A DNA stretch of 64,000 nucleotides. It comes from Anthracocystis setariae. Taxonomy: Eukaryota; Basidiomycota; Ustilaginomycetes; Ustilaginales; Ustilaginaceae. Made by a program: the position numbers and the translations under genes. The notes under the pieces were generated by a model, which was not told the DNA's origin, did no database searches, and worked only from the letters and a program-made list of their open reading frames with translations. The stretch is from NCBI GenBank assembly GCA_928724745.1, contig CAKMXJ010000001.1, positions 372,001 to 436,000 of the forward strand, read 5' to 3'. Of the stretch, positions 354-34,179 are shown piece by piece (positions within the stretch are counted from its first letter, which is position 1; each line of letters starts with the position of its first letter).

Positions 354-400
354 TTACAATCGACCTCCCCGTTGCCATCAACGCGGAGACCCCAGCTACT

Positions 401-8777: not shown

Positions 8778-9938
8778 ATGCCTAAACGAGGCCGCGGTCG
8801 CGGCAAAGGAAACAACAACGGCAAGACTAAGTCCAGCACTAATTCCGCTGCCCGCAACTCCGCTCCATCGTCAAGTGCCCCACCGACATCGGTAGCCGCT
8901 TCTAGTTCTCGCGCCGCAAGCACCCGTGCAGGAAAAGCACGTGAGAGCGCTCCGCCTGAAGTGATTGATCTAGCCGACGTCCGAACTCCGTCTCCCCCGC
9001 CCCCTTCACAGCGACGCTTGAGGGGTGGTACTCCGTACACGAGATCTATCGTTCGTGGTGAGCCTATTCCTGCCGAGCCTACAATCCCTGGTCAACCTTC
9101 CACTCCCCCCGTCAATGCATCGTCCTCCAGTCGGCGTCAAGGCCGTACCGCTTCCCCTGAGACTCCCGGCAAACGCAGACGCTTTGCGTTCCCGTTGCCT
9201 GCAGGGACTACCAATCAGCGGGAGACCCTTGCTGACTTCCCTTCCGACGAGCAAGAGGTAATTCGACAAGGATATTGGGTCAAATTGCCTGGATGCGATT
9301 ATTGCATGAAGAAGGGCGTCATCTGCACTACGGGTACCGGGTTCGATATGACTGGCAAGCAGCGTACGGACAGCTGTGATCTGTGCCACAGACACGGCAA
9401 GTCCTGTACCTTGATCGGCGACAACCACCGCAAAACGCGTGGACGGCAGGACCGTGTCGCCATCGCTAATGCGTTGGCTCGACTGCGGATGCATGTGAAC
9501 GGACTTACTCGCCAGCTGGAATTCGATGCAGCTATCGTTGACATCAACTTGCTCTCGTCCCTGCTCAACATTGACATGCCGGACATTCTTACTGGTGGCA
9601 ATGTTGCCGACGCTCTGCTCCCCCATCGCCGTCCTCGTCGTTCTGCTCCACGTCGACCTCGTCCTACCGCTGAAGGTACCGCGTCTGGAGCTGCTCCTTC
9701 CAACAACCGACAACTCGCCGCCGCTCCCACCACTCCCATGTCGCCGTCGCCTGCTCGTCCCTCCGCTAGTTTCCCTCGTCCTCGCCGACCTCGTAACCCA
9801 ACTCCCGTCGCCGATAACGACGAAGAGGAGGAGGCAGAGGAAACGGAAGGCGAAAATAGCTCCGACGAGGATGATGAACACCTCATCCATCTTTATGACG
9901 ATGACGACGACGAGTACGTGGGTAGCTTGTCGCGATAG
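8778..9938 (+). CDS. copia1 accessory protein with Zn2Cys6-like cluster (386 aa)
   Basis: Separate sense gene between pol and the 3' LTR, start chosen at the first ATG (MPKRGRGRGKG); the frame is open further upstream but without an ATG. Order: basic Ser/Ala/Pro-rich N terminus, basic patch GKRRR, then C173-x2-C176-x6-C183-x16-C200-x2-C203-x6-C210. This matches the fungal GAL4-type binuclear zinc cluster except for the longer loop. A basic linker and a Leu-rich helical stretch (ALARLRMHVNGL...) follow, like the linker and coiled coil of GAL4 proteins. The C terminus is strongly acidic (DEEEEAEETEGE, YDDDDDEY). A DNA-binding regulator is the likeliest role, but function is inferred. It is not part of any copia core gene I know. 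The copy in copia2 looks identical. Confidence 0.8.
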   Translation: MPKRGRGRGKGNNNGKTKSSTNSAARNSAPSSSAPPTSVAASSSRAASTRAGKARESAPPEVIDLADVRTPSPPPPSQRRLRGGTPYTRSIVRGEPIPAEPTIPGQPSTPPVNASSSSRRQGRTASPETPGKRRRFAFPLPAGTTNQRETLADFPSDEQEVIRQGYWVKLPGCDYCMKKGVICTTGTGFDMTGKQRTDSCDLCHRHGKSCTLIGDNHRKTRGRQDRVAIANALARLRMHVNGLTRQLEFDAAIVDINLLSSLLNIDMPDILTGGNVADALLPHRRPRRSAPRRPRPTAEGTASGAAPSNNRQLAAAPTTPMSPSPARPSASFPRPRRPRNPTPVADNDEEEEAEETEGENSSDEDDEHLIHLYDDDDDEYVGSLSR

Positions 9939-10324
9939 TCACTGCAGGCAACTGCAGTCTTTTCTTTTCCTTTCCCGATCCGTTTCCCTTGGGCCTTAGG
10001 CCAATGACTCCCTTGTATGTAGTTGTTTCCTCATCGTCGCTGATGACTTTCATGTCGTCGCCGTTCTATTAACGGCCTCCTTCCCTTTCGGCGCAATAGG
10101 TCTCAACTTCATTCAGGTAGTTCTCGATGTCTCGTCCCGGTCCTTCCGCTCACTGTAGTAACTTAGCGCTGGCGCTAGTGTCTATAGTTGTCTCTTCAAG
10201 TTCCCTGATCGCTTGCTCTCTAGCAAATTCAAGTGCGATCACTTAAACACAGCTATGCGTGTGAGGTTTGTATATGTCTCATGTCATGGTCGATAGCCTC
10301 AATGACTTAGCAGATGAAGGGGAC
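9939..10324 (+). other. copia1 3' untranslated region ending in polypurine tract
   Basis: No gene. It ends in the purine run GAAGGGGAC (10316-10324) directly before the 3' LTR, the expected plus-strand priming site. Confidence 0.7.
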
Positions 10325-11039
10325 TGTTGAAATATATGGTCACCTGCTGCGTCAGCTATCGACGTGACACTACAGACGTCGGTATGCCCATAACTAGGGC
10401 GGTGATATTCCGACATAGTTGCCGACAATACAATTCCTCGGGACTCGGCAGCGGGGAAACTATACGCGTGCCAATGCCAATGCTGGCACTGTGCGTTCCC
10501 ACGTGACGTTGACATGGTGCCTCATCATATCTCTGACCGGGATGTTACTCGTCGGGTCATGTTATTGTCAACATCGTTGTTTATGTTGATGATCAACTGT
10601 TGTTTACACTTAGCGTAGAATCTTGTCACTAACGTCGACGCTATGGGGTTCCCTACACCGCTACGGGCAACAACGGTGTAGGGGACTAAGTGTATTTATA
10701 GGGCGTACTTCGAGCGCACAGTTGATGACCCCTTAATCGATTTATTACCAACTTCTCCGTATCATAACGCCTGCTACTTACAGATCCTTACCGACGTCGC
10801 TACTGTTGTATCGACATAGGTCTCTCCCCTTCGTGCCTGCTGCCTAACGTCACCGCCCACTCTTGGTTACGGATCTAACTGGCCTGACATAACAACAGAG
10901 CCAGCTCTATACGCCCATCCACCAGTGTGAGGTCTATAGCGACTTAGCTACTTGTTATAGTATCTTTGGCAGACGATAGACTCATCGTACCTGGCTGCCT
11001 ACCGTCAAGGTCGCCCCTTGACGCACTTGACTTCCAATA
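10325..11039 (+). repeat. 3' LTR of copia1
   Basis: 715 bp, identical by eye to 2621-3335. It is followed by the second CAGCC copy (11040-11044) and then by the Gy1 pol gene. The identity points to recent insertion. Confidence 0.93.
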
Positions 11040-11044
11040 CAGCC

Positions 11045-12039
11045 GCCCCTATCATCTTCGTCCCGAAGAAAGATGGCAAACTCCGCCTTTGCGTCGACTA
11101 CCGGGCCCTCAACAGCATTACCGTCAAAGACAAGTACCCGATTCCCCTGATCTCCGAGCACCTGGACTGCCTCTCCCGGGCTAAGATTTACACGAAATTG
11201 GATCTTAAGGGGGCCTACAATCTTGTCCGCATCGCGGAGGGCGACGAATGGAAAACAGCCTTCCGGACCAGGTACGGGAGCTACGAATACTTAGTTATGC
11301 CCTTTGGGCTATGTAACGCTCCGTCTACCTTCCAGCGTCTTATGAACCACGTTCTCCACGACCTCTTGGATGTCACCGTAATAGTGTATTTGGACGATAT
11401 CCTCATATTTTCCGTCGACCCCGCAGAACACACCTCTCACGTCCGGGAGGTGTTGAGACGCCTCCGAGACCACAAGCTGTACTGTGCCCCGGAAAAATGT
11501 GACTTCAGGACCTCGTCCGTCGAGTTCCTCGGGTACCGGGTCAGTCCCGGGGGGATCAGCATGGACCCCGGTAAAGTGGACGCGGTGACGTCCTGGCCCG
11601 AACCGGTCACCATCCGGGACATCCAGGTCTTCCTAGGATTTGCCAATTTCTATCGCCGCTTCATCCGGCACTACTCCCGGGTGGCGTCCCCGCTCACCGA
11701 TCGGCTCAAGAACAAGGCCTCCGGTAAAATCAACTTGGAGCCCCGTGAGCGGGAAGCCTTCACCCGTCTCAAGGAAGCCTTCACTACCGCTCCAATCCTA
11801 CAACACTTCGACCCCTCCCGGCTCACAGTGATCGAGACAGATGCTAGTGATTACGTCGTGGCTGCCGTACTCTCCCAGTGGCATGCCATCCCGGGAACCG
11901 ACCCCGGGGCCGTACCCCGGCCCTCGACCCACCGGCTTCACCCGGTAGCCTATTGGTCGCGAAAGATGCAGCCCGCCGAGCGCAATTACGAAATACACGA
12001 TAAGGAGCTCCTAGCGATCGTGGACGCGTTGCAGGAATG
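11045..12039 (+). pseudogene. Gy1 gag-pol, part 2 of 3: reverse transcriptase and start of RNase H
   Basis: Continuation of the frame from 2620. RT motifs seen are [27 protein letters not shown] and the catalytic VYLDDILIF near 11386. The RT/RNase H connection [11 protein letters not shown] and the RNase H motifs ETDASD and [11 protein letters not shown] follow. It breaks at 12039, where Gy2 inserted (GAATG at 12035-12039), and resumes at 30171 with the interrupted Trp codon completed exactly. No internal stop or frameshift is seen. Confidence 0.93.
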
Positions 12040-13152
12040 TGTCAGCGGTCGGGCGCCTGGTAAATAGGCCGATCTTGTTTCGAGAGCGGTGCGGTCCTGT
12101 TGGGCTGGGCCGCCGAGTTTAGGTTACGCGCCTGCGCAACTGGGTAGTACGAGGTGGGTTGCGCAGATACGTCGGCGGTCCGATAACGACGACTGGGCCG
12201 CACTCGACTCGACGGCGGTGGAGTGTGGGCCTCTCAACCGCGTTCGACCTATTACCGACTGACGCTGTTGGCGCTCCGTTCAGCGGCAGCACGGCGTACT
12301 CGGTATTACGGTGTGTTAGCTTGGTGTCTCGCGAGCGCTCTTGACGAGACAGGAAGCTGTTTAGATGATTAGGTGAACACTGGGAGTGATCACCAAGCTG
12401 TTACGGTGACGGCTTAGGGCCTGACGTCCCGATGTCAGCTTGTAGGCAGCGTTTACGCGCTGCGGTGTCGATACCGGTACCGACGAGGTCTAGCTGTTCT
12501 CCGACTTGAACGGAGGCACGCGAGGAAGCTGCAATGCTACTTGTATTGCAACTTACTGAACTAGAAACTGAATGATCGTGAAGACGTCGTTAAGAATAGA
12601 TACTGAGCTGAAGACTGGTGTTGTAAGAAGTAGAGTGGATGAGGAGCTCATCCACTACGAGCCAGATGAGGAGGCCTTAAGTATGACAGCTCCAAACCCC
12701 TATGGCAAGGCCGTTCCAGCGCTAGCCTATTGTCTAGCTGCACGGCCTGCGTGTGCGCATGTACTGACCGTGGTACAAGTATCTGCTCACCTCCAAGCCT
12801 CTGAGAGCGCTTGAGATGGTGTCCCTCGACTACTGATCGCCTCGAGATGACGTTGTCGCGATCCGGCGTCTCTGCGCTGTCGAACGGCCGCAATCCGATC
12901 GCTATGGACGAAAACGGCTGAAAGAGACTCATTGAGCCGCATTCACTCCGAGGGCGGCCGAAAAGCGTGTTTTCCACCGCTTCAACTTTGTCGCCCGTGA
13001 GTAGCGCCACTGCTAAACTCGGCGCACTGCTGGCCACGTGCCTCCCCTCGCCCGAATGCGAGGGCGGTTGACCGTAGCCCTCTTAACCGCGCTGGAACCG
13101 AAGGCGGTCGGGAAACCAGTTTTCCGCCGCCTCGGCATCGCTGCCTGTGACA
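12040..13152 (-). repeat. 3' LTR of Gy2
   Basis: 1113 bp, same as 29053-30165 by eye. On the plus strand it runs from TGTCAGCGG to GCCTGTGACA, bounded by TG and CA. It lies upstream of the antisense extra gene and could supply that gene's promoter. I see no clear TATA box on either strand. Confidence 0.95.
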
Positions 13153-13162
13153 TTACCCCCCG
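13153..13162 (-). promoter_or_regulatory. Polypurine tract of Gy2
   Basis: On the minus strand this reads CGGGGGGTAA and touches the 3' LTR. It is very like the Gy1 tract (CCGGGGGGGGGTAA), supporting a related replication machinery in the two chromoviruses. Confidence 0.7.
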
Positions 13163-13299
13163 TCCGAGACCCGAGCTCCTGCGAGGCGAAATGAAATGGG
13201 CTGCGCATCTTCCAACCGTTGTGAGCTCGACGGCGGCTGTGTGATGAGGCTGAAGAACTACCATCATCACCTTCCAGCCCCCTCGTCGTTATCAGTACC

Positions 13300-14938
13300 A
13301 TGGCGCCCAAAAAGAAACCCTCGCCTACTCCTACCGTTCCCTCGCGCCGATCGGCTCGGCTCGCCAAGACGCCAGCCGATGTCGATACCGCCTCCGCCTT
13401 ATCTTCCGGCGTCAGTGATGCCCCGGTGGCGTCTTCCAGTAATCCCACGCCTGCTGTCAGTGTCGCCGCCGCCGCCACTGCTGACGTGACTGACCCCATG
13501 CCTTCGGTTGCTGATGCTATTCCATCTGACGGAGGAACCGAGGTTGCCGCTGTTACCGCGCCGGCTGTCGTGGCCGTAGATACTGTGACTGCCGCTTCCG
13601 ACGCTGTGGCTGATTCTGTTGTTGTTGCTCCGCCTGACGCCATTGCGTCTTCTATCGATATCGCTGCGCCAGCACCCGTGACCCCTCCACCGAACCGGAT
13701 TCCGTCTGTTGGGGTTGGCTCTTTGCTGGTACCATTGTTCCTTGGGCCGTCGCGCTCGCCATCGTCGAGAGGTTCAATCTCGCCTCCTCGCTCGCCGGTC
13801 TACGTACGTTCCTCGCCGGACCTATACGCGCCCCCCACCTCTCCTTCCCGAATTCCTACCTCTCCGGTGAGGTTCACGGCCGAGGAGCTGCGTGTGATGA
13901 CTAGCGCGCAGCTCCATGAGCATGGTCTAACGCCCGCCTCGCCCGTGGGGCCCCGCTCACCCACCTACGGTGCCGAATCGAACGAGCCCGCTGGTCCTGG
14001 GCGCGCTGACACGCCTGTGGGTTCCTGGGAGTCGCCCAGCCGCCAGACGCCTGGTCTTGGCCCGCGCCTGGGATCGCCCGGCCGCCGTACGCCCGAAATC
14101 GGCCCGCCGCCTATTCGTCGAGCCGAAGACGTGGCGCCGCAGCGCACAGGTCCACGCAAACCAGCTCTGGTCGAGATGCTGGAATGGACCGAACAATTTA
14201 CCGCCCCTGCCTTGCTCATTGCGATCATCAACGAGGCCTGGGACCGCGATTGGCAGCTGGACGACGCCGGCAGAGTTTGGTTGCACCGAACGATGGTGCG
14301 ACGCTTGACCGAGGGTAGTTCTCCATGGCCGAACTACAGCTGCCAGCACTGTGCCGACTTGGATGTGCCGTAAGTATCGTTCTCGGCGTAAGTGGTTTGG
14401 ACAACACTAACGATTTTCCTTGTTTCTTGATGATAATAGGTGCTTTCCGGTCACCTATGGTGATCCTACGGGCCCTCGTCCCCGACCCGCAGCCTCGTCA
14501 TGCTGCCATTGCTTGACGAGCAAGAAGAAGTGTGGCGGACGCACGATCTGGCGCGCCACACGTCACGAGTACGTCGGCGATAGCCCGTATACAACGTTGG
14601 GAACACACGAGCGGGCTGTGGTGCGGGCCCACCTATCGTATTCTGGTGGTCTCGGTTTGGGTGCGGTGCGGCGTCGCGACCGCCTGGTGGACTGGTACAA
14701 GGAGCGATCCTTCCACCTCGACGCTCGCGACGCCTTCTCAGCGGAGGGCGCAATCGGGACCCAAGTGCGTGAGACCTTGGCGCGGTACCACCGCGAGAAT
14801 CGCTCCCTGCTCGGCCAATACCTACCGTGCGAAGTCATGGAGGAGGAGCCGAACTTCGAGGGTCTTGGCTGGTTCGTGGAGAGCCGGGGTGACAATGAGG
14901 ATGAGGTGCGATACCACCGCCCTGAAGTCTTCCGCTAG
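13300..14938 (+). CDS. Gy2 antisense accessory protein, Zn2Cys6-like, spliced (522 aa)
   Basis: Gene on the strand opposite to Gy2 gag-pol, between pol and the 3' LTR. Exon 1 is 13300-14369 and exon 2 is 14440-14938. The ATG has a good context (TACCATGG). The N terminus is basic (MAPKKK, RRSARLAK), followed by a long Ala/Val/Pro/Ser-rich segment. The Cys pattern is C348-x2-C351-x6-C358-x19-C378-x2-C381-x6-C388, with SKKKC in the second half, again like a GAL4-type cluster with a long loop. The C-terminal part is charged and probably helical. Unspliced message stops right after the intron starts, before the third Cys. The gene ends 213 bp from the convergent pol stop. Role unknown; DNA binding is inferred. 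Confidence 0.8.
14370..14439 (+). other. Spliceosomal intron in the Gy2 accessory gene
   Basis: 70-nt intron with donor GTAAGT (14370-14375), branch-like CACTAAC (14405-14411) and acceptor ATAG (14436-14439). Removal joins CC to G within a Pro codon and keeps the frame, placing the third Cys of the zinc cluster one codon later. Without splicing a TAA occurs at 14371-14373. Confidence 0.85.
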
Positions 14939-15151
14939 ATGTTGTCCAGCAATTTTAGGTCGTTTCTGCCTACTCGTTGTGCTTGAAAACCTTCTGTATT
15001 GGTCGTGATGTCTTGAAACTTGCGAAAAGAGTGTGCGTGTGTGGCGACGGGTGTCGATAACGGCTAGTTGAATTGCTCACACACCGCAGTCGCGTCACGG
15101 CGGCTGAGTGACCCGCACTGCGCCGCCGATTAATTAAGCGCGGCTGGGCAG

Positions 15152-18100
15152 CTAACTTGCCTGCCGTCTTCCAGCGCTTCGGAGTCGTCCCCCCCGCTTT
15201 TCCTCATACTCCCGGATGAGGTCTGGGCAGGCGAGAAGCTCAACAAACTCCCAAGACGCTTGCTCCTCCGGGTAGCCCTTCCAGAGAACACGGTATTGAA
15301 GCCGGCCGTTGACAGCACGGTGTCCAGTGATAGCTTCGACTTCGTACTCGAGGTCTTTGTCGGGCAACGGCGGTACAGCCGTACGGTCTTCCCGACCAGC
15401 TAGGCCGCTGGATCGCCGCTTTTCAAGCATCGAAACGTGGAAAACGTTGTGTACCCGTATCGACGCTGGTAACTGGAGGCGGTACGCTCTAACGCCGACA
15501 CGCTCGACAATGGGGTACGGCCCGGCGAAACGGGTGTCGAGCTTGGGACTCGGTCGACGAGTCTTCCAATTGCGTCGATTGACGTAGACGAGCTCACCGA
15601 CCTTGAACTCGACGTCGAGCCGCTTCTTATTGTACTGCTCAACCACACGAGTTTGAGCCGATCTAACTTGGTCTTGCAGGTATGCAGTGAGCTCTGCTTC
15701 CGAGCGGGCGAATTCAGCTCGTTGAGGGTCGAGCACGCCTGCACGCTCTGGTACTTCAGGATGCGTTTTCGGATTCCACCCGTAGCAAGCAAAGAATGGT
15801 GAGACGCCGAGACTGCTGTGTACTGCATTGTTGTAGACGAACTCGGCATTGGCTAACAGCGAAGCCCAGTTATCCTGCTCGTAGTTGCAATACATACGAA
15901 GGTACTGCTCGACAACTTGGTTGACTCGCTCCGTCTGTCCGTCGGTCTGGGGGTGGTACGCCGTCGACATCGAGTGCTGGATGGAGTGGAAATCGGTGTA
16001 CCGCTTCCAGACTGCAGAGATAAACTGACGACCGCGGTCTGAGACAATATGCTCGGGTATCCCAAACCGGCGGAACACGTGTTGCTGGAGGAGCTCGGCA
16101 GTGCGAGCCGATGTGATAGTCTTGACCGTCGGCGTGAGTACCGCGAGCTTGGTGAGCCGATCGACGACGACCAGAATCGAGTCGTAGCCGTCGGAGAGTG
16201 GCAGGCCCTCGATAAAGTCCATGGATACCGATCCCCATGGTCTTGAAGGAGTGGCCAGAGGTTTAAGCAGGCCGTACGGCCGATGACGAGGTGCCTTGTA
16301 GCGGGCGCAGACCGGACAGCTCGCTACGTAGTCGGCGATCCAGGCCCGCATTCCTGGCCACCAGTAGTGACGCTGGGTGAGGGCCAGCGTTGCGTCACGA
16401 CCCGGATGTCCGGCGGTGATGCCGTCGTGGCACTGTGTCATCACCATGAAGCGCAGATGCTCCACCGAGAGTGACTGCTCACTGACAATCTTGGCCGAAC
16501 GTGTGTCACGACGGCCCTGCTTCCCGGCCGACGTGACCTTGGGTATGACAAGTCGGCCTTCGCGATACCAAAGACCGTCTTTGACCTCGAAGGGCGTGTG
16601 CTTGTGGAGCTCCTGGAGCTCCGTGTCGAGCGGTTGGAACATTCGAGCTAGTTCCGGCAGGCCACCCCTCACTATTGCCGCCATGGACGACCGCGGCTTA
16701 ATGGCATTCTCTGAGCCGCCGTCGAACCCATTTCGGCTCGGTAACTGATTTTCCGGTAATGCAGTTCCAAAAATGCGGGGGTGGAGGAGCTGCCGAACGT
16801 TATGCTCGCGCTCTTCAGTTGATGGTTCCATATCACTACGTCGTGTCAAGGAGTCGGGCTCGCCAGCCTTGTTTCCTGGTCGGTACTGAACAACAAAGTC
16901 AAAATCGGCCAGTAACACGGCCCAACGAGCCTGTCGACCGCTAATACGACGTTGCACGGTGAAGTACTTGAGCGCTTCGTGATCCGAGAGAACAGCGAAC
17001 TGAGACGGGAGCCCCGCAAGCATATGTCGCCACTGATGGAGGCAGGCAACGATGGCGAGGAGCTCCTTGTCGTGAATCTCGTAGTTCTTCTCGGCAGACG
17101 TCATTTTACGCGAGTAGAAAGCCACGGGATGCCATCTGTTTTCTGTCTCCTGCTTGAGGACGCCGGCGATGGCGAAGTCACTGGCGTCGGTTTCGAGACG
17201 GGTTGGCTTATGATAATCGAAATGTCGCAGTACCCCGGCCGTCGTGAACGCTTCGATGAGCTTGTGGAAAGCCTCAACCGCCTCCTCCGACAGTTGGAAC
17301 TTCTTGAACCGCTCCGTAGGTTTGATGAGCGTTGTGAGGGGCTTCGAGATCCGCGCGAAATGTGAGATAAACCGACGGTAGAAGTTCGCAAACCCAAGAA
17401 AGCGCTGGATATCATGAATCGTCTGAGGCAGCGGCCACTCTTTGATGATTCGTACTTTCTCCTGATCCATTTCGATACCTCCTGGCGTAATGATGTAGCC
17501 AAGGAACTCGACGGTATCAGTGTGGAAGATGCACTTCGACAGTTTGGCGAAAAGTCGGTTCGCTTGCAACCGCCGCAATACCTCGCGAACGTGTTCAACG
17601 TGCTCGGCTTCATTATCGCTGAAGATGAGAAAATCGTCGAGGTACACCACGACGTAGACGCCGATGATGTCACGGAAGATGCCGTTGACGAGAGACTGAA
17701 AGTGTGACGGTGCGTTTGCCAGCCCGAAAGGCATGACAAGGTACTCGTACAGGCCGAGCTGTGTTCCGAACGCCGTCTTCCATTCGTCGCCATCGGCTAT
17801 ACGTACTAGGTTGTACGCTGCTTTGAGATCGAGCTTGCTGAACACCTTAGCATTCCTCAGTAGGAACAGTTGCTCCTCGATGAGCGGTAGTGGCGCTCGG
17901 TTCTTGATAGTGACCTCATTGAGCCCTCGGTAGTCGACACAGAGACGGAGGCCCCCGTCCTTCTTGGGCACAAACAGCACTGGCGAGCGCGCTGGGCTCT
18001 TTGATGGTCGAATGAATCCCTTCGCGAGGTTCTCGTCGAGATACCTGCGAAGTTCTTCCATCTCTTTAGGCCCCTTGAGATAGAGTGGGCCCTGAGGAGG

Positions 18101-18919
18101 TTTGGCTCCGGGCATGAGCTCGATGGGCAAGTCCGTGCTGGTGCGAGGAGGCAGCTTGTCGGCCTCGACTTCACTGAAGACCGCCTCGAGATCCCGGTAT
18201 TGCTCTGGGATCGGCACTGGAGTCGGTGGTTCAGGCTCCACCTCAATCTCGATGCCCTTGTCTTCGCCGGTAGGGACGAAGCCGAAGCTTGGCAGCGAGG
18301 AGGGTGGAGCATCGATTAGCATAATGCCAATCGGTCCGTCCTGATAGGACGCTTGGACGAGCTGTTGGAATGAGACGAACTCGTTGCCGTGGACCGTGAT
18401 AGCCGGCTTGTTAGAGGGTAAGGCGCGGCTGGTGACACTAAATAACGGGCCGAGGTCGTGTTCAACGCGGCCCAGTGGATCCCGCTGCGCCGCGGTGAAT
18501 TTAATTCGGCCCGAAGTCCAGTCGATCCTCGGCTGAAGTGTGCGGAGTTCCTGGTAGCCGATAATGAGATCGAAATCGCTGATGTCCGCGACATAGGCCT
18601 GCAGCGGCGGTAAAGTTTGCTCGCCGATGTTGACCGTCAGCGTCGCATTGTGAGTGATGGCTAGACGATGGCCGCTGACGCCGTGGACTGCAGTGGGCTG
18701 GGGAGTGGTCTTGATGTTAATACAATATGTACGGGCGTAAGCGCTTGAGAGAAGAGACAGTGAAGCTCCGGTGTCGGCCAGTATGCGAGCCGGGCACCCG
18801 TTGATGGTGCCGGTAACTTCGAGGACCGATAGATTGGAGTTGGTTGAGAAACACAACGAACAGTTCCGATATATACAGGGTGATGGCGAGGGCGGTTGTA
18901 GGGCAAGACAAGCCATCAT
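15152..18919 (-). CDS. Gy2 pol: protease, RT, RNase H, integrase, chromodomain (1255 aa)
   Basis: Intact 1255-residue Pol. Protease motif LADTGAS is near residue 48. RT has [24 protein letters not shown] and VYLDDFLIF; RNase H has LETDASDFA. The integrase HHCC zinc region ends CPVCARYK, and the core has SMDFIEGLP, VSDRGRQF and HPQTDGQTERVNQ. The C-terminal chromodomain has YEVEAITGHR and VLWKGYP, as in chromoviruses that target silent chromatin. The ATG overlaps the gag stop codon (ATGA at 18919-18916), so Pol is made either by a -1 shift or by termination-reinitiation. It is the only complete pol in the window, but its upstream gag is cut by copia2. Confidence 0.92.
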   Translation of the reverse strand: MMACLALQPPSPSPCIYRNCSLCFSTNSNLSVLEVTGTINGCPARILADTGASLSLLSSAYARTYCINIKTTPQPTAVHGVSGHRLAITHNATLTVNIGEQTLPPLQAYVADISDFDLIIGYQELRTLQPRIDWTSGRIKFTAAQRDPLGRVEHDLGPLFSVTSRALPSNKPAITVHGNEFVSFQQLVQASYQDGPIGIMLIDAPPSSLPSFGFVPTGEDKGIEIEVEPEPPTPVPIPEQYRDLEAVFSEVEADKLPPRTSTDLPIELMPGAKPPQGPLYLKGPKEMEELRRYLDENLAKGFIRPSKSPARSPVLFVPKKDGGLRLCVDYRGLNEVTIKNRAPLPLIEEQLFLLRNAKVFSKLDLKAAYNLVRIADGDEWKTAFGTQLGLYEYLVMPFGLANAPSHFQSLVNGIFRDIIGVYVVVYLDDFLIFSDNEAEHVEHVREVLRRLQANRLFAKLSKCIFHTDTVEFLGYIITPGGIEMDQEKVRIIKEWPLPQTIHDIQRFLGFANFYRRFISHFARISKPLTTLIKPTERFKKFQLSEEAVEAFHKLIEAFTTAGVLRHFDYHKPTRLETDASDFAIAGVLKQETENRWHPVAFYSRKMTSAEKNYEIHDKELLAIVACLHQWRHMLAGLPSQFAVLSDHEALKYFTVQRRISGRQARWAVLLADFDFVVQYRPGNKAGEPDSLTRRSDMEPSTEEREHNVRQLLHPRIFGTALPENQLPSRNGFDGGSENAIKPRSSMAAIVRGGLPELARMFQPLDTELQELHKHTPFEVKDGLWYREGRLVIPKVTSAGKQGRRDTRSAKIVSEQSLSVEHLRFMVMTQCHDGITAGHPGRDATLALTQRHYWWPGMRAWIADYVASCPVCARYKAPRHRPYGLLKPLATPSRPWGSVSMDFIEGLPLSDGYDSILVVVDRLTKLAVLTPTVKTITSARTAELLQQHVFRRFGIPEHIVSDRGRQFISAVWKRYTDFHSIQHSMSTAYHPQTDGQTERVNQVVEQYLRMYCNYEQDNWASLLANAEFVYNNAVHSSLGVSPFFACYGWNPKTHPEVPERAGVLDPQRAEFARSEAELTAYLQDQVRSAQTRVVEQYNKKRLDVEFKVGELVYVNRRNWKTRRPSPKLDTRFAGPYPIVERVGVRAYRLQLPASIRVHNVFHVSMLEKRRSSGLAGREDRTAVPPLPDKDLEYEVEAITGHRAVNGRLQYRVLWKGYPEEQASWEFVELLACPDLIREYEEKRGGRLRSAGRRQAS

Positions 18920-19440: not shown

Positions 19441-19445
19441 CTGTG

Positions 19446-25500: not shown

Positions 25501-27144
25501 AGTCTTGGCGACCAAGTTAAGGGACATAAGATTGGCGGCATACGTCGGTACGTATAAAACATTGTGGAGAATGAGGGTATGCGTTTTCCCGTTACCGAGA
25601 TCGGCAAGTACCTTAACGGTCCCCTTACCCTCTGTCTTTACGTGGTCACGACTGCCGCTCAGCAGAGGAGGGAACTCCTCAAGGCTGAGGTCTGTAAAGA
25701 GATCACGATTGATACAAACGTGAACAGTGGACGCGGAATCGATAATCCATTGCGTCTCAATGCCGTAACCGCTGTCGGTAGTGGACAAAGCGATGTCGGC
25801 AATGGCAAGGCCAGTGAAGAAGGAGGATTGTGACTTCTTGTCGGAGGGTTGTGCTGCTTTATCCTTAGCCAAGGTAGGGCAATCAGGTCTATAATGACCC
25901 TTTTCATGGCAATGATGGCAGGACACTTCCGACAAGGGACGGCGTGGTTTGATCCCTTTGTTGGTCTTGCCGCGTCTGTTGTTGCGTTGACGCTTATCTG
26001 GAGATGATGAAGATGTCGACTTGTGTCTCCATTTGCCGTTACGATTCTTGGCAGATTTGGAGCTGGAATCATCCGTCTTGGTGTCGGTCAGGAACGCGGA
26101 AGTGTTTTGCCGAGGTCGGGCAGCTAAACCAAAGGTATGTAACCCCTGTCTTATTTCCTCGGCCTTGAGTTGGTCAAGGTAGCTATCGTACTCAATCTTC
26201 TCGTCCAAGGGGGTCCCTTGGAAGTTGAACGTCCTAACGGTACCGTCAGGGTCCATAGAGGTGAAGGTTTGTACATCCCGACGTCGTCTGTAACTTTCTT
26301 CGAGCTGACTTCGAACGGTATGGTATTCCGATCGGAGACCCTTCATTAAGACGGTGAAGCGCTTATTCCAGCTGACTTCAATGCCTCCAAGCTTAAGTTG
26401 TTCAACTAGCTTGGTGATTCGTGTGTTATAGGCGGAGATAGTAGTCTTGTCTTGCTTAATGCTATTGAGCTGTGTTTCGAACTCTTCAATCTTGTATCGT
26501 AGCTTAGCGCTAAACGACTTCTCCAGATGCTTCCATATTCCGTTAGCCGTTTCATGGTGGTTTACCATGGTTGCGATTTCGAGTGACATGCTCGACAGTA
26601 GGATACCGCGAGCGATAAGGTTGTAACGACGCCAGTCTCGATACTCGTCAGTACCGGGAGCAGGTATAGGCGTTTCTGTCATGATGGCATCATAGATGTC
26701 TGGGCCCTTTTGCATTAGAGTTGTGATGCAGGTGGCACGCCATTTGAAATAGTCGACAGAGTCGTCAAGGTCCGGGAGTTTTTGCCCGTTGGAGAGAAGC
26801 TGCGTAGCGAAATCGGAAGTAACCTTAGACATGTTGACAGATCTGTAAGGTTGTAACGGAGTTGATACCGTGCGTACCGACGAAGGTAGGGGCTCTTGAA
26901 TAGGAACTTCGCTGTCTTGTACAGCGGAAACGATGTTTTGTGTTGCAGATGAGGCTTCGCTGGTCACTACAGCGGGAACAGTGTTTTCGTTATTGCGAAC
27001 TGTATGGTCTCTCGAGCGTCGCGATTGTGCGGATCGAGGAGGTACTGGGTCTCCGACGTCTGGAATCGAAAGAAGAGATCTTACTGGATTGTTTCTTGTG
27101 TTGTAGCGTCGGTATTCTCCCAGTCGTGAAGCCGTTGGGCTCAT
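22508..27144 (-). pseudogene. copia2 gag-pol polyprotein, broken by one frameshift
   Basis: Same polyprotein as in copia1 but with different lesions. The two C-run insertions of copia1 are absent, so gag and protease are open for about 590 residues from the ATG at 27144. Near 25386-25392 a GAGTC replaces the GAATTC of copia1, shifting the frame after PKLE and stopping soon after at 25339. The frame for integrase, RT and RNase H (from about 25386 to 22508) is then open and matches copia1. So each copia copy is intact where the other is broken. Confidence 0.92.
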
Positions 27145-27148
27145 AACC
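27137..27148 (-). promoter_or_regulatory. Primer binding site of copia2 (half-tRNA type)
   Basis: On the minus strand GGTTATGAGCCC follows the 5' LTR and contains the gag ATG, exactly as in copia1. Confidence 0.85.
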
Positions 27149-27863
27149 TATTGGAAGTCAAGTGCGTCAAGGGGCGACCTTGACGGTAGGCAGCCAGGTA
27201 CGATGAGTCTATCGTCTGCCAAAGATACTATAACAAGTAGCTAAGTCGCTATAGACCTCACACTGGTGGATGGGCGTATAGAGCTGGCTCTGTTGTTATG
27301 TCAGGCCAGTTAGATCCGTAACCAAGAGTGGGCGGTGACGTTAGGCAGCAGGCACGAAGGGGAGAGACCTATGTCGATACAACAGTAGCGACGTCGGTAA
27401 GGATCTGTAAGTAGCAGGCGTTATGATACGGAGAAGTTGGTAATAAATCGATTAAGGGGTCATCAACTGTGCGCTCGAAGTACGCCCTATAAATACACTT
27501 AGTCCCCTACACCGTTGTTGCCCGTAGCGGTGTAGGGAACCCCATAGCGTCGACGTTAGTGACAAGATTCTACGCTAAGTGTAAACAACAGTTGATCATC
27601 AACATAAACAACGATGTTGACAATAACATGACCCGACGAGTAACATCCCGGTCAGAGATATGATGAGGCACCATGTCAACGTCACGTGGGAACGCACAGT
27701 GCCAGCATTGGCATTGGCACGCGTATAGTTTCCCCGCTGCCGAGTCCCGAGGAATTGTATTGTCGGCAACTATGTCGGAATATCACCGCCCTAGTTATGG
27801 GCATACCGACGTCTGTAGTGTCACGTCGATAGCTGACGCAGCAGGTGACCATATATTTCAACA
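27149..27863 (-). repeat. 5' LTR of copia2
   Basis: 715 bp, identical by eye to the other copia LTRs. The TATA-like box on the minus strand lies at 27495-27487 beside the 10-bp inverted repeat. Confidence 0.93.
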
Positions 27864-29015
27864 CTGTGCCAGGACCCGATTGCGGTCCAAATCCTCCACC
27901 TCGCGATAGAATTCCCACATCGTCTTCGGCGCCGTGCGTTCGAACTGACGCTGGAGAGCTGTCGTCAAGCCTCGTCGGAAGAGGTGGAGCTTGAGATGCT
28001 CATCGCTCATGCCTGCTCGCTCTTCGAGGGTCCTGAAAGCCTCGACATACTCACTTGCGGCGCCTGGCTTGTCGCTGGCGAGGCGCAGAGCGTAGAGCTT
28101 ATTGAAGGCGTCTAGCTTCTCGTCGTGTACTCCATAGAGCTGCTTGAGTCGGTTAACGAATAGAGCCCAGTCACCGAACAGCGCACCCGACTGTGATGGA
28201 TCGGCTCGTAGCTTTGACCGGTACCAGGTGAGCGCCCGACCCTTGAGATGCGGCCCTAGGAACTGAATCCTCTTGCGGCCGTCGGACATCTCTTGGTATC
28301 GGAACCAAGCCTCGACCTGAATGAGTGACATCTCCAGGTCATCCTCTTGCCAGTCGGGGAAATCGAGCTTCGGGTCGTTCTTGGTAGTGCTGCGCTCGAA
28401 GTTTGATTCCCGTGTCGGCATCGTGGGGTGGTCCCAGGCGGGCCGTCGGCCGGTAGACGTCGAATACAAGTCCTCTTGACTGTATTCGTCATTCCAGCGT
28501 AGGACTGACGTCGCTGGCCGACGGGCTGGGGTGGAACTACCTAGCGGGGCAGAGCGCCGTGGGTCATCGTGCATGCTGTACGATCTCTCCTCTTGCGCTT
28601 CGAGGCCAGGAGCAACGGCGGCGACCTCCGGCTCACCCCCTCGGCGTAGGGCTGGCTTGATCAGCTCCCTGAGGTCTGCGATCTCGGCCTTGAGCGCGAG
28701 GATCTCCTCCTGTTGCGCCGTGAGGGGTCGCGACGACGCTGGGATAGCTGTCAAAGGCGTGGACGACGACTTGAAACCGGTCGCCTGGTCCATGAGTGTG
28801 TAGAGCTTCTCCTGGAAGCGGAGTCGGTCCTGACTCTCTTTCAGCATGGCCTCCTGTCGACTAGCTTCGTAAACCATGCGTTGATTGTGGACCTCCTTCA
28901 TCTGAAGTCGTATGTCCTCAATTAAGCCTTGCAGCAATGGTTCCGGGTTCGTTGCAGGAGGCGACGAAGCCCGACTGCGAGGAGTACTGCCTCGCGGCGC
29001 AGCTGCGTCGGACAT
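27864..29015 (-). pseudogene. Gy2 gag, 5' part (capsid region)
   Basis: First 384 codons of Gy2 Gag, starting at the first ATG 37 nt inside the 5' LTR. The N terminus is Ser/Pro-rich, then a likely coiled coil (EDIRLQMKEVHNQRMVYEAS...), then a retrotransposon gag domain with WFRYQEM and LYALRLASDKPGAASEY. It stops at the copia2 insertion after VLAQ. The short leader holds no recognisable tRNA-complementary PBS, so the priming mode is unknown. Confidence 0.9.
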
Positions 29016-29052
29016 GTCGAGTACGGGGCGCTGCTTGAACGATCCACTCTAA

Positions 29053-30165
29053 TGTCAGCGGTCGGGCGCCTGGTAAATAGGCCGATCTTGTTTCGAGAGC
29101 GGTGCGGTCCTGTTGGGCTGGGCCGCCGAGTTTAGGTTACGCGCCTGCGCAACTGGGTAGTACGAGGTGGGTTGCGCAGATACGTCGGCGGTCCGATAAC
29201 GACGACTGGGCCGCACTCGACTCGACGGCGGTGGAGTGTGGGCCTCTCAACCGCGTTCGACCTATTACCGACTGACGCTGTTGGCGCTCCGTTCAGCGGC
29301 AGCACGGCGTACTCGGTATTACGGTGTGTTAGCTTGGTGTCTCGCGAGCGCTCTTGACGAGACAGGAAGCTGTTTAGATGATTAGGTGAACACTGGGAGT
29401 GATCACCAAGCTGTTACGGTGACGGCTTAGGGCCTGACGTCCCGATGTCAGCTTGTAGGCAGCGTTTACGCGCTGCGGTGTCGATACCGGTACCGACGAG
29501 GTCTAGCTGTTCTCCGACTTGAACGGAGGCACGCGAGGAAGCTGCAATGCTACTTGTATTGCAACTTACTGAACTAGAAACTGAATGATCGTGAAGACGT
29601 CGTTAAGAATAGATACTGAGCTGAAGACTGGTGTTGTAAGAAGTAGAGTGGATGAGGAGCTCATCCACTACGAGCCAGATGAGGAGGCCTTAAGTATGAC
29701 AGCTCCAAACCCCTATGGCAAGGCCGTTCCAGCGCTAGCCTATTGTCTAGCTGCACGGCCTGCGTGTGCGCATGTACTGACCGTGGTACAAGTATCTGCT
29801 CACCTCCAAGCCTCTGAGAGCGCTTGAGATGGTGTCCCTCGACTACTGATCGCCTCGAGATGACGTTGTCGCGATCCGGCGTCTCTGCGCTGTCGAACGG
29901 CCGCAATCCGATCGCTATGGACGAAAACGGCTGAAAGAGACTCATTGAGCCGCATTCACTCCGAGGGCGGCCGAAAAGCGTGTTTTCCACCGCTTCAACT
30001 TTGTCGCCCGTGAGTAGCGCCACTGCTAAACTCGGCGCACTGCTGGCCACGTGCCTCCCCTCGCCCGAATGCGAGGGCGGTTGACCGTAGCCCTCTTAAC
30101 CGCGCTGGAACCGAAGGCGGTCGGGAAACCAGTTTTCCGCCGCCTCGGCATCGCTGCCTGTGACA
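29053..30165 (-). repeat. 5' LTR of Gy2
   Basis: 1113 bp, identical by eye to 12040-13152. The second GAATG target copy follows at 30166-30170, then Gy1 pol resumes. Confidence 0.95.
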
Positions 30166-30170
30166 GAATG

Positions 30171-31842
30171 GAGACATTACCTCCACGGGCTCCAGGAGCC
30201 GTTTGAGGTGCTCACCGACCACCAGGCCCTCCAATATTTCCAAACAAAACGGCAACTTAACAGGCGGCAGGCCCGGTGGAGCATGGCTCTCGGGGAATTC
30301 ACGTTTACCATTACGTACCGACCCGGGACCCAGGCAACCCGCCCGGACGCTCTGTCCCGGCGCTCCGATGGTCATCCCAACACCACCACTACCAACCATC
30401 AGCATGACCCCGCTAACGTCGCGGTCCTCCTACCCCCTCACCTGTTCCAAGATTCCGGGCTGGCGGAACAACGAACCCCGGCCGCGCACCGGATATCTGA
30501 CGTAGCCCCGGACCCCGATCCCCTCCCGACCAGTCCCATGTCCCCCGACGAAGTTAGACAAATCCTAGAACGCTATCACGACCACCCAACGGCGGGACAC
30601 CCGGGAGTGGCCGCGACCCTCAAATTAGTCCGCCGTCACCATTCCTGGTCGACCCTCAAGCAAGATGTCACGGAATACGTCCGAACCTGCGGGGCCTGTA
30701 AGCGCGCTAAGGCACCCCGGCACAAGCCTTACGGACTGCTACTCCCGCTTGAGGCCCCGTCCCGGCCGTTCGGGACCATCACCATGGACCATATCGAAGG
30801 TCTCCCGCCTTCCCAGGCAGGTGGCCTCACATTCGACTCCGTTCTCGTCGTCGTCGATCGCCTCACCAAATACTCGCTTTTCCTCCCGGCTCGCAAGTCC
30901 GATACGGCTAAGGACCTCGCCCACATGCTGTTCTCCCGTGTCTTTGCCTATTTTGGACTCCCGGACACCATCGTCTCGGACCGGGGGCGCACGTTTGTAG
31001 CATCCTTGTGGAAAGACATATTAGCCGCCCTCGGAACCACCCCGGCCCTCTCGACAGCCTATCATCCGCAAACCGACGGCCAAACGGAGCGTATCAACCA
31101 AAACTTAGAAGTTTTCCTCCGATTCTATGTTAACTACCAGCAAGACGACTGGGCTGCATGGCTGCCGTACGCCCAACTTACGCTTAACAATAGGGTGTCA
31201 GCTACTACCGGACTCCCGGCCACCCTACCCCTATTTGGCTTCACTCCGCGAACCCTCCCCGGCTCCCCGGCCCTCTCCCCGGATGGTGCTCCGCCCTCCG
31301 ACTCGTCCTTCCGGAAGCTCCTCGAACACTGCCAAGTCAACATCAACCACGCTGCCGGTATTATGTCACGATATGCGAACCGTTCCAGGATGGACCGGTC
31401 TTTTTCCGGGGGTGATACGGTGCTACTCCGCACCCGGCATCTCCGACAAGATCGACCGTCCCGGAAGTTAGGGAACCCGCTAGCGGGACCGTTTCGTGTC
31501 CTCCAGGCGGTAGGCTCCCGGGCTTACAAGCTGGACCTCCCGCCTGCCTGGAAAATCCACCCGGTCTTTCATGTCAGCCTCCTGGAACCGCACTCCCCAG
31601 ACACCCGGCCGTCCGAGCACGCCCCGACGTCCCGGCGCCTGGAGGACGACCGACAAGATTTTGAAGTGGAAGATATCCTAGCTTCCCGGGAGACACGTCG
31701 AGGGCTACAATACCGGGTGAAGTGGGCGGGGTACACCCAACCTACCTGGGAGCCCGCGATTCACCTGGAAAACAGCCAAGAACTGCTCCAGGAATTCCAT
31801 CAGCGGCGGCCCGGGAGCCAGGTTAACTCCCGGGACTGCTGA
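30171..31842 (+). pseudogene. Gy1 gag-pol, part 3 of 3: RNase H end, integrase, chromodomain
   Basis: Last 557 codons of the Gy1 frame, resuming the split Trp codon. The RNase H end has LTDHQALQYF. The integrase has the HHCC zinc region (CGACKRAKAPRH), then TMDHIEGLP, IVSDRGRTF and YHPQTDGQTERINQ. It ends with a chromodomain (FEVEDILASRE, YRVKWAGYTQPTWEP). The stop TGA is at 31840-31842. No lesion is seen within it; together with parts 1 and 2 it would make an uninterrupted polyprotein if the two insertions were absent. Confidence 0.93.
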
Positions 31843-32160
31843 CTCCCGGTCGCCATCGCGCAGTCCCGGTTGGACAGGCCTGCACGGTGTCGGTTACTAC
31901 CGCGACCCCCCCCCGAGGTAACCCGCGGACGGGGCGCGACTACTCACCTCGACCCGGGACGCGGGGTACTTGTCGGAAACAGCTCATCCCGACAGACGTG
32001 TTGCGTCCAGGGTTATTTCCCGACCCCCCATCCTCAGCCGAAGGACAGAACACTCCTCAACCACACACACACACAGCACTCAGGGTTCGGGGACAAATAC
32101 ATTTTCATTCCCGGGGTCCTAATGACCCCGGACACACTACAAGACCACGCTCCCGGGACC
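31843..32160. other. Spacer between the convergent Gy1 pol and antisense gene
   Basis: 318 bp between two facing stop codons. GC-rich, with several CCCGG sites and a short AC run near 32063-32076. It probably contains both 3' ends. Nothing else is seen. Confidence 0.5.
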
Positions 32161-34092
32161 CTAACGACGCCCCCTACGAGAAGGAGTGCGGGGACGGGAC
32201 TCGTACACATCCGAGTCCACCATCACCACATCCTCGTCGGAGTCCTCCCCGGACTCCCGGCTGCGGCCCTCAGCCCCCGAGGACTCCTCGTCGCGGGAGT
32301 CGTCCCGGGAGCCCTCCCGGGAGCTGCCACGGCGGCGGGGGCGGATGGGAGCCCGCATGTCCCTCACCACCGCCTGAGCGCGGCGACGCTGGGCACGCCT
32401 CTCCGGCTCGGGAGAGGCGGGGCGAAGCCCACTCAACGGGAGGCGCTTCCCCCCGGTCTGAAAGCTCCCCGGGGGGCGCTTTCCTCCCGTCTGGGAGCTC
32501 CCAGGCAAACGCTTCCCCCCGGTTTGGGAACGAGACCCTCCAGCCCGGGGGGGCCTTTCCCGCGTCGGGGTCCCGGGGCGCTGCCTTTTCGCGCGCGCCA
32601 ACTCCGGGGTCGCCGGAGCATAACCCGGGGGAGAGGACCCCCGGGGGCGGGACGGCCCAGCCTCAGCATTGGGGCGGGGAGCAGCCGCCACGCGAGCGGG
32701 AGCGGCGGCGGGGACAGGGGCGGGAGCAGGGGCAGGGGCGGGGACGACCGGGGGCGGGGGAGGCGGCGGGACGCCCAGCTCCTGAGTAATGCCTCCAAAG
32801 GCATGACTCACACCCTCCACGTAACGGAGGATGTTCTCGTCCCGGTACGACCAGGCGAGACGGCGCTCCGCGCCCACGGCAGCGGTCCGGCGCAAGACTT
32901 GCACCAGCGCGGCGATGACGCCCGCTGCGTGCGAGGCGGCCTCCCGGGCCCCGGCCATATGCTGCTCCCCGGGAGCATCGAAAGGGCACATCTGGCGGAG
33001 GGCCAGAGGTGCGTCGTGCACGAGGGTGGTCTGTTTCCACCCCCGCTGGCCCCGGGGAGGCCGGGAGCTCGGGGCACTGCCGCCAGCGCCGGAGGACGCC
33101 CCAGCGGGAGACTCGGGAGCCCGGGGTCTACTCCCCGCCTTGGCTTGCCTCCGAGCCTCATACCGAGCACGCGCTGGGGCGTACTCGGCCGCCAGGTACT
33201 CCGGGAGGTCAGCCGCGGAGAACGAGGTAAAAGGCATCCCGGGGTTAGGACGTTGTCCCCGGGATCGGAGGATAAGGTAAGCCTCCATCAGGAAGCCACC
33301 CTCCTGGCGCCCCGTAATGTCCGGGACGCGACCTTGCCAGTCGCAGGGATACCCCGCGGCATGGCACCTCTCACACGCGGCAGGCTGACCGTCCCGGGGG
33401 TCTCCCGGACCCCCGACGTCCCGGTGAGCAAAACCCAGGGAGCACTGCGGGTGGGGCTTTTTCTTGCTGTTGGCGCAAGACCAACAGTGCCCGTACCCCT
33501 CGGAAGCGGGAGGGGGACCCCGTGCTCGAACCTCCCGGACCAACTCCGCCAGCCTCCCGGGATCCCCAATCGGTACGCCAGCCCCGGGAGTCGGGGCGGC
33601 CACGTTCGAGAATCCGGGGGTGACCCCACTGGGGGGAGCCACCGCGGTGCTGGCATCCTGGCCCGGGAGCCCGGGAGCATGCTGCCCATCTTCCCGGCGC
33701 GGAGATGTGTTCCGCGCCGGGGACTCGTCCACGACCCTGGAAGCCGGGATCAAATCGGCTCCAGCTTCCCCGCCCTCCCGAGCGGGGGACTCGTCCGCAT
33801 ACAGGGAGACCACGTCTCCCTCTTGGGCCACGTATCGGCCCGACTCGTCCACGACCTCCGGGGCACTCACTCCCCGGGACTCGTCCACAACCTCCGGGGC
33901 ACTAACACCCCGGGACTCGTCCACAGCCATTACATTTTCGGGGGCGGGGGCAGAGCCTCCCGCGACCCCAGAGTCGGGACCACCGCGCCGGGTGGAAGAT
34001 CGGGTTGCTGCGTTCAGATGAGAAAGGCAAAGGATGTCAGTGATCAGTCCCTGCCTCGTACCTCGGGTCCCGGAACAGTACTTACTACGCAT
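32161..34092 (-). CDS. Gy1 antisense accessory protein, Cys6 cluster (643 aa)
   Basis: Gene opposite to Gy1 gag-pol, between pol and the 3' LTR, in the same place as the Gy2 extra gene. An N-terminal tandem repeat has units of VDESRGVSAPEV. Cys pattern: C203-x2-C206-x10-C217-x22-C240-x2-C243-x6-C250; the first half-site (ANSKKKPHPQ) is longer than in the other families. A helical segment (VIAALVQVLRRTAAVGAERR) and an Ala/Pro/Arg-rich end follow. A possible in-frame 78-nt intron (GTAAGT at 34085-34080, AG at 34009-34008) would remove residues 3-28 without stopping the frame. A TATA box lies upstream. The opposite strand is also open over this GC-rich stretch but has no such motif and no suitable ATG. 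Role unknown. Confidence 0.68.
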   Translation of the reverse strand: MRSKYCSGTRGTRQGLITDILCLSHLNAATRSSTRRGGPDSGVAGGSAPAPENVMAVDESRGVSAPEVVDESRGVSAPEVVDESGRYVAQEGDVVSLYADESPAREGGEAGADLIPASRVVDESPARNTSPRREDGQHAPGLPGQDASTAVAPPSGVTPGFSNVAAPTPGAGVPIGDPGRLAELVREVRARGPPPASEGYGHCWSCANSKKKPHPQCSLGFAHRDVGGPGDPRDGQPAACERCHAAGYPCDWQGRVPDITGRQEGGFLMEAYLILRSRGQRPNPGMPFTSFSAADLPEYLAAEYAPARARYEARRQAKAGSRPRAPESPAGASSGAGGSAPSSRPPRGQRGWKQTTLVHDAPLALRQMCPFDAPGEQHMAGAREAASHAAGVIAALVQVLRRTAAVGAERRLAWSYRDENILRYVEGVSHAFGGITQELGVPPPPPPPVVPAPAPAPAPVPAAAPARVAAAPRPNAEAGPSRPRGSSPPGYAPATPELARAKRQRPGTPTRERPPRAGGSRSQTGGKRLPGSSQTGGKRPPGSFQTGGKRLPLSGLRPASPEPERRAQRRRAQAVVRDMRAPIRPRRRGSSREGSRDDSRDEESSGAEGRSRESGEDSDEDVVMVDSDVYESRPRTPSRRGRR

Positions 34093-34170
34093 AGTCTTGA
34101 TGTACGTTCCCGAGCGTTAGAACGTAGGATGTGGAAGAAGGGAAAGAACCAGGAACGGGAGCGAGGCGAG

Positions 34171-34179
34171 TTTTATATA
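34171..34179 (-). promoter_or_regulatory. TATA box of the Gy1 antisense gene
   Basis: On the minus strand this reads TATATAAAA, about 80 nt upstream of the antisense ATG at 34092. It lies inside the 3' LTR boundary, so the antisense gene would have its own promoter. Inferred start about 34140-34150. Confidence 0.65.

Follow-up and report, generated by a model that had tools for sequence, protein, structure and literature searches.

The window analyzed here is a 64,000-nucleotide stretch of the Anthracocystis setariae genome (G000:C1:372001-436000; genome 21.5 Mb, 36 contigs) and holds four nested long terminal repeat (LTR) retrotransposons. The chromodomain gypsy element Gy1 contains a first copia element and the chromodomain gypsy element Gy2, which itself contains a second copia element. 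In all three families, each represented by an LTR-bounded nested element, an accessory gene sits between pol and the 3' LTR, and its coordinates and open reading frames (ORFs) agree with the original prediction that copia, Gy1, and Gy2 each carry an extra gene in this place. The products contain two Cys half-sites, arranged as C-x2-C-x6-C-x16-C-x2-C-x6-C in both copia copies, C-x2-C-x10-C-x22-C-x2-C-x6-C in Gy1, and C-x2-C-x6-C-x19-C-x2-C-x6-C in Gy2, where the pattern is readable only after a 70-bp GT-AG intron is removed. These half-site types and separations of 16, 19, and 22 residues are the ones predicted, in Gy2 after splicing. The copia gene is sense and the Gy1 and Gy2 genes run opposite to gag-pol, an orientation that the prediction did not mention. 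The gypsy genes begin ∼150-800 bp inwards from the 3' LTR and lie tail-to-tail toward pol.

The two-half-site pattern is no chance product of composition. A loose form of it occurs in 3 of the 76 stop-free frames of at least 150 amino acids in the window, and these are the three single-exon genes; in the host part of the window it occurs in 0 of 38 such frames. First-order Markov windows (200 in number) gave 0.01 pattern frames per window, and since each holds just 23 frames of at least 150 amino acids, ∼0.03 would be expected for 76. Residue shuffles of each accessory protein returned the pattern in 0 of 2000 cases.

The Gy2 gene could be followed in six copies. All six preserve the GTAAGT donor and YAG acceptor of its intron despite divergence of the intron body, and none has a stop in the spliced frame. 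We note that the intron interrupts the first half-site of the Cys domain (domain at window 14341-14533) and that the relative Gy4 (L071) reads through there without an intron; the difference is an intron gain or loss in an antisense element gene.

Conservation and Selection

The accessory gene is under clear purifying selection. Among the 16 copia A copies (15 distinct), the ratio of nonsynonymous to synonymous polymorphism (pN/pS) is 0.091, with 39/17/135 variable columns at the three codon positions. Variable columns make up 17% of the accessory gene and 7% of the pol tail, as well as 27% of the gap between pol and the gene, 49% of the gap between the gene and the LTR, and 53% of the LTR. 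For Gy1, we used 24 of the 30 fetched copies, leaving out those with stops or a missing end, and obtained a pN/pS of 0.292 in the accessory frame versus 1.37 in the opposite, pol-strand frame. The corresponding values for Gy3 (three copies) are 0.23 versus 1.68 in the mirror frame. In Gy2 (6 of 24 copies, all six frames open), the ratio is 0.288, falling to 0.08 in the Cys-domain segment and reaching 0.62 at the N-terminus. With copia B (seven copies, 0.33) and copia C (0.41, from one pair), selection was measured in six of the ten groups described below. A dN/dS of about 1, the mark of a frame free of purifying selection, is thus not what copia A, Gy1, or Gy2 gives.

In sliding windows along copia A and Gy1, pN/pS is lowest at the Cys domain (0.02 and 0.10, respectively), and all six Cys are preserved in 30/30 fetched copia-type loci and 30/30 fetched Gy1 loci. 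Frames are stop-free within the match in 25 of the 30 fetched Gy1 loci, in 16/16 copia A loci, and in the first 24 Gy2 exon-2 rows.

The Gy1 pol frame stays open for >770 codons after its stop, facing the accessory gene (window 31843-34194), and three Gy3 loci do likewise. Because its variable columns mirror those of the accessory frame, we take the Gy1 pol-strand frame to be a shadow. We read such an open pol-strand frame as the shadow of the antisense gene and as an annotation trap.

Distribution in the Genome

The original prediction had proposed a search for relatives between pol and LTR. Run in the same genome with the three window proteins and then with their relatives, it shows the accessory gene in other copies of all three families, and seven more copia and gypsy groups carry a two-Cys-cluster gene, which brings the total to ten. 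There are 158 accessory loci: copia A 16, copia B-D 43, copia E 13, copia F 6, Gy1 38, Gy3 15, Gy2 24, and Gy4 3. With pol mapped from the best-scoring candidates (e.g., the best 78 of 194), 143 of the 158 have a listed pol match of the same superfamily no more than 4 kb away, and every one of these is downstream of pol. Orientation among the linked loci is strict, with 69/69 copia genes sense and 74/74 gypsy genes antisense. The 15 loci that have no listed pol match nearby are perhaps fragments, or else their pol fell outside the scored candidates. LTR sequence follows the gene in 15/16 copia A copies. Of 18 Gy1 copies drawn from the 24 used for selection, 17 have LTR sequence beyond the gene oriented as expected (matches of 185-351 bp), and in the eighteenth it is reversed.

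Loci were counted one row per locus with fragments merged by eye, and the 158 still include fragments, for example in copia E. Four short separate Gy1 fragments (C10:779654, C5:123908, C10:808472, and C20:440334) and two short copia-type rows (C6:370906 and C8:3026) were excluded. The copia A count is the 16 full rows of the copia search, its 35 weaker rows being represented by the relatives' search. Copia E, copia F, and Gy4 were chosen on the basis of pol only, and a two-Cys-cluster frame is present in each: CHTCRVGRHRC-x15-CFWCYKKKRPC, CTRCKRLNNKGHVVLC-x10-CDNCQVTSRSC, and CERCWRLGVPC-x18-CTNCHVAGMGKC, respectively. A copia pol family at 44% identity (C5:879504, C5:121645, and C8:350151) lies outside the accessory sampling.

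Three further loci are of separate interest. An isolated copia-type accessory match at G000:C20:160084-160422 (34-35%, 191-aa open frame) has no listed copia pol within 4 kb and is possibly a remnant or a host-kept copy. At G000:C20:440334-450684, a Gy1 accessory gene seems to be split by a nested copia A element, in a nest like that of the window. At L063:4773-5897, just past where the open frame on the Gy3 pol strand ends, there is a 1.1-kb imperfect inverted repeat that is 83% self-complementary.

Features of the Window

The coordinates of the elements and their genes are collected in Table 1. All four elements look young because the two LTRs are identical in each (4/4). The target duplications are GAATG for Gy2 and CTGTG for copia element 2. 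The ORF at window 34622-35587 encodes a DDE_3 domain (E 6.7e-24 in Pfam), a label that we take to denote a Tc1/mariner-like transposase; its end is overlapped by the Gy1 3' LTR (to 34725), and Gy1 appears to sit inside this DNA transposon gene. A GATA factor is also encoded in the window and, like the 85 Zn_clus matches above the cut-off in the genome, suits a fungal source.

Table 1. Retrotransposons, pol regions, and accessory genes in the window (window coordinates)
Feature	Position	Strand	Details
Gy1 chromodomain gypsy element	4..34725	+	LTRs 4-353 and 34376-34725, 350 bp, identical
Copia element 1	2621..11039	+	LTRs 2621-3335 and 10325-11039, 715 bp, identical; inserted in Gy1
Copia pol, copy 1 (integrase, reverse transcriptase)	3897..7979	+	Pfam RVT_2, rve
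Copia accessory gene, copy 1, 386 aa	8778..9938	+	sense; Cys domain ~9294-9407; ORF
Gy2 chromodomain gypsy element	12040..30165	-	LTRs 12040-13152 and 29053-30165, 1113 bp, identical
Gy2 accessory exon 1	13300..14369	+	antisense to Gy2 pol; first half-site starts ~14341
Gy2 accessory intron, 70 bp, GTAAGT...TAG	14370..14439	+	
Gy2 accessory exon 2	14440..14938	+	second half-site ends ~14533
Gy2 pol, integrase + chromodomain	15152..18919	-	Pfam
Copia element 2	19446..27863	-	LTRs 19446-20160 and 27149-27863, 715 bp, identical; inserted in Gy2
Copia accessory gene, copy 2, protein identical to copy 1	20547..21707	-	Cys domain ~21078-21191
Gy1 pol part, integrase + chromodomain	30160..31842	+	Pfam
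Long open frame facing the Gy1 accessory gene, pol strand	31870..34194	+	read as shadow frame, not gene (pN/pS 1.37)
Gy1 accessory gene, 643 aa	32161..34092	-	antisense to Gy1 pol; Cys domain ~33343-33486

Identity of the Cys Domain

Across all ten groups the half-sites read C-x2-C-x5 to x11-C and stand 10 to 38 residues apart in mostly low-complexity protein. The original prediction had likened them to the GAL4-type cluster, and the likeness found is weak. Both half-sites are exact C-x2-C-x6-C in six of the ten groups (copia A-E and Gy2). Of 16 copia-type members, 13 match Zn_clus (PF00172) weakly, the best at E 0.016, and the scores listed do not reach the cut-off. In the AlphaFold2 model of the copia B protein, a short helix lies at each CxxC and a 28-residue helix follows the domain. 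This arrangement would suit a zinc cluster with a coiled coil behind it, but at the middling confidence of the model it is suggestive only.

Several observations weigh against reading these genes as Zn2Cys6-type regulators common to copia and gypsy elements. One half-site of the two is exact in Gy1, copia F, and Gy4, and neither is exact in Gy3. The linker is 15-22 residues in eight groups and 33 or 38 in Gy3, depending on the Cys counted; only that of copia F (10) fits the 5-12 range quoted for GAL4-type clusters in the prediction, so that nearly all linkers are too long. No Pfam family reaches its cut-off in the accessory proteins tested (the PF00172 gathering cut-off is 21 bits), in scans run with E up to 10 and in one case up to 1, and Zn_clus has no match in 12 Gy1/Gy3 members or in the Gy2, Gy4, copia E, and copia F domains. 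No Zn2Cys6 structure was matched by sequence. The AlphaFold2 models are of middling confidence (predicted local distance difference test, pLDDT, 65.3 for copia B and 59.5 for Gy1), and the structural matches listed cover only the helices of the copia B model, with none for the Gy1 model. Paired CGG triplets, the usual Zn2Cys6 binding sites, show no significant enrichment in any of the three LTRs (lowest p 0.074, in Gy1). Finally, a similar two-cluster Cys gene occupies this place in ten of the eleven groups of copia and gypsy elements considered. A distant gypsy pol (L062 989-3970) has no two-half-site frame in the available downstream sequence (988 bp). Reverse transcriptase, RNase H, H2C2, and SH3 domains were found in this pol, and a chromodomain was not found at E 0.001; it is possible that it belongs to a lineage without the accessory gene.

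The genome holds 85 Zn_clus matches above the cut-off, as would suit a capture of host transcription factor genes that the elements then kept passively. We consider such a capture very improbable. No Zn_clus match coincides with an accessory locus: 0/93 lie within 1.5 kb of an accessory match, and 0/93 lie within 4 kb of a mapped copia or gypsy pol. Passive keeping also runs counter to the purifying selection found in all six groups measured, copia C by one pair only.

Other identities were considered for the product. An env-like ORF3 was rejected for want of a transmembrane segment: no strong hydrophobic segment is present in the ten frames, in which the highest 19-residue Kyte-Doolittle mean is 0.46-1.57 and the usual transmembrane threshold is ∼1.6. 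The TRP28 protein of Retand (PF04195) was rejected as well, there being no such match in the Pfam scans of accessory proteins. The ten frames, which for groups outside the window are stop-to-stop frames and not exact genes, carry acidic stretches and, in nine of the ten, basic clusters.

Origin of the Copia and Gypsy Domains

Within each superfamily the gene appears to descend with its element. In copia groups A, B, and C, 12 loci hold both pol and accessory gene, and across them accessory distances track pol distances (Mantel r 0.91, 0/5000 permutations as high). Gy1 and Gy3 share 70% of the integrase part together with a recognizable accessory likeness, as do Gy2 and Gy4 at 71%.

Between superfamilies, hhalign aligned the Cys domains of copia B (P 8e-5) and copia C (P 5e-6) with that of Gy2 over 43-47 columns, and 0/100 shuffles that kept the Cys in place reached the score of either pair. 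Such shuffles were run on 11 of the 45 group pairs. The copia A-Gy1 pair beat 100/100 of them, barely (23.5 versus a shuffle maximum of 23.1). A single origin is disfavored by copia D, the nearest relative of B and C, whose score with Gy2 is not above that of shuffles (18/100 reach it); shuffles also reached the score in 7/100 cases for copia A-Gy2 and 5/100 for copia B-Gy1. Most of the 24 copia-gypsy profile pairs are not significant, and the same is true of pairs between Gy1/Gy3 and Gy2/Gy4. Signals are weak within superfamilies too, with 5, 3, and 1 of 100 shuffles reaching the score for copia A-E, copia C-F, and Gy1-Gy4, respectively. With 24 pairs tried, these alignments are moderate evidence, not proof, that the copia and gypsy Cys domains had one origin.

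The alternative is convergence, of origin and not of function, in which gypsy and copia elements each took up an unrelated Cys-rich gene; we put its chances at about even. It would account for the many cross-family comparisons that are not significant, for the difference in orientation that holds without exception among linked copia and gypsy loci, and for the variable half-site spacing. It sits less well with the match of copia B and C to Gy2, which extends beyond Cys spacing, and with the same place and similar layout of the gene in ten groups. The original prediction held that gypsy and copia had acquired or exchanged the gene. An exchange draws support from the copia B and C matches to Gy2; it is not favored by the majority of the 24 pairs, which do not stand out. 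Inside superfamilies the gene follows pol. Only tentatively do we suggest a wider picture in which one zinc-cluster-like module was passed between copia and gypsy in fungal genomes, sense in one and antisense in the other, as a near-universal third gene, so that each LTR element would run its own DNA-binding regulator and cross-regulation might occur.

Proposed Function

That copia and gypsy, two kinds of retrotransposon that separated long ago, both carry a maintained Cys gene suggests that these elements make their own DNA- or RNA-binding regulators. The accessory product is most likely an element-encoded nuclear regulator that would bind nucleic acid. We rank first a regulator of transcription of its own family, acting on LTR or internal element DNA, a proposal that we hold to be a roughly balanced call. 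Gene, position, orientation, intron, selection, and linkage are read from the sequence. From them we infer that the Cys domain would bind zinc and serve as a nuclear nucleic-acid-binding domain, and that the protein would go back to the nucleus, bind element DNA in the LTR or internally, and regulate transcription of its own family, with Tat/Tax or the antisense HBZ of retroviruses as possible analogues.

The same data would fit a counter-defense role, in which the protein binds element chromatin or the small-RNA machinery and so relieves its own family of silencing by the host. Such a role could explain the faster N-termini of Gy1 and Gy2 (pN/pS 0.5-0.7) as the product of an arms race and the ten diverged forms in one genome as family-specific action. 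We regard it as unlikely: nothing indicates a silencing partner, the copia A N-terminus is not fast (0.14), and disordered tails are expected to evolve fast without conflict too.

Cys domains can also bind RNA, and the product might instead act after transcription, aiding nuclear export or packaging of element RNA in the manner of Rev or of CERV of Cer1. CERV is a precedent, being a nuclear accessory protein of an LTR element that is required for genomic RNA export (PMC10309623; this and the other papers cited by PMC number are represented here by excerpts). The weak Pfam likeness, however, is to a DNA-binding cluster, and the Gy2 intron, being antisense, does not hinder export of the sense RNA, which makes a post-transcriptional factor rather unlikely. 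Improbable, in our judgment, is a factor that rides with the pre-integration complex and steers it to the nucleus or to certain sites. The basic clusters and the nesting of elements in the window are compatible with that task, but a chromodomain integrase is already present in Gy1 and Gy2 alike.

A regulator of transcription of its own family stays our preferred reading. The Gy2 intron further suggests that antisense placement would permit introns in a gypsy accessory gene. Since splicing would act on the antisense mRNA and not on the RNA that is reverse-transcribed, the gene could retain its intron, and this antisense gene suggests how an element can carry an intron through rounds of reverse transcription.

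Little is known of what the accessory genes of LTR retrotransposons do. Because ten of the eleven groups share a similar layout, the same place, superfamily-specific orientation in every linked locus, and, where measured, clear selection, the function of such genes becomes testable with small domains and defined LTR targets. The occurrence of the gene in both copia and gypsy raises the question of whether transposons exchange regulators.

Comparison with Known Systems

The original prediction knew of no standard gypsy or copia gene of this kind. That needs qualifying as to place, as extra genes between pol and the 3' LTR are known, antisense ones included (PMC7264820, PMC8365987); with respect to the domain, we found none with this one in the excerpts. 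Among plant gypsy elements, Grande (gene23), RIRE2, and Retand have extra ORFs in this interval (PMC7264820). In Grande the gene is driven by a promoter of its own and the product is a nuclear protein (PMC7264820), and the TRP28 protein of Retand is predicted to bind DNA (PMC11963269). These additional ORFs (aORFs) resemble the accessory gene described here in position, antisense orientation, and conservation across copies. The features used to define them (aORF-3S / aORF-3R) are found here as well: a place beside pol, with LTR sequence beyond the gene, and a protein conserved across copies, with a pN/pS of 0.09-0.33 in copia A, copia B, Gy1, Gy2, and Gy3 and of 0.41 in the one copia C pair. 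They differ in having plant hosts, and Retand is of a non-chromovirus lineage. A Cys cluster is not mentioned for plant aORFs in the excerpts, and the term "zinc finger" is absent from that of PMC11963269.

A fungal parallel is brtn of Boty-like elements, reportedly the subject of Zhao et al. in 2011, to go by the title. Compared by description only, brtn shares with our gypsy genes a fungal gypsy element, an antisense gene, and the same place, and differs in its ascomycete host. It lies in Boty-like gypsy elements of Botrytis cinerea (PMC7264820; PMC8365987), and the functions of the antisense genes of Boty and of plant gypsy elements are given as unknown in these papers (PMC7264820, PMC8365987). 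In the excerpts of two fungal surveys (PMC3248453, PMC2864245), the terms "zinc" and "additional ORF" are absent.

Three further systems are similar in part. Bdelloid rotifer retroelements have one ORF3 type in unrelated lineages of one host, and so share with the present genes an extra ORF type common to unrelated retroelement lineages; theirs are enzymes (GDSL esterase and DEDDy exonuclease) and not Cys domains (PMC5408684). HBZ of HTLV-1 is an antisense accessory protein (PMC11963269), and HBZ and CERV are alike in being nuclear accessory proteins of LTR elements. Like PF00172 proteins, six of our ten groups have two C-x2-C-x6-C half-sites, and the copia B model has helices at CxxC and a long helix after. 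Unlike them, the accessory domains have longer linkers in nine of ten groups and altered spacing in four, score below the cut-off, and are encoded by mobile elements. CERV and HBZ, for their part, carry domains other than the accessory Cys domain. Taken together, the position of the gene and the antisense habit are already known. New, as far as the literature was searched, are the Cys domain, the finding that both superfamilies carry it, and the strict rule of orientation.

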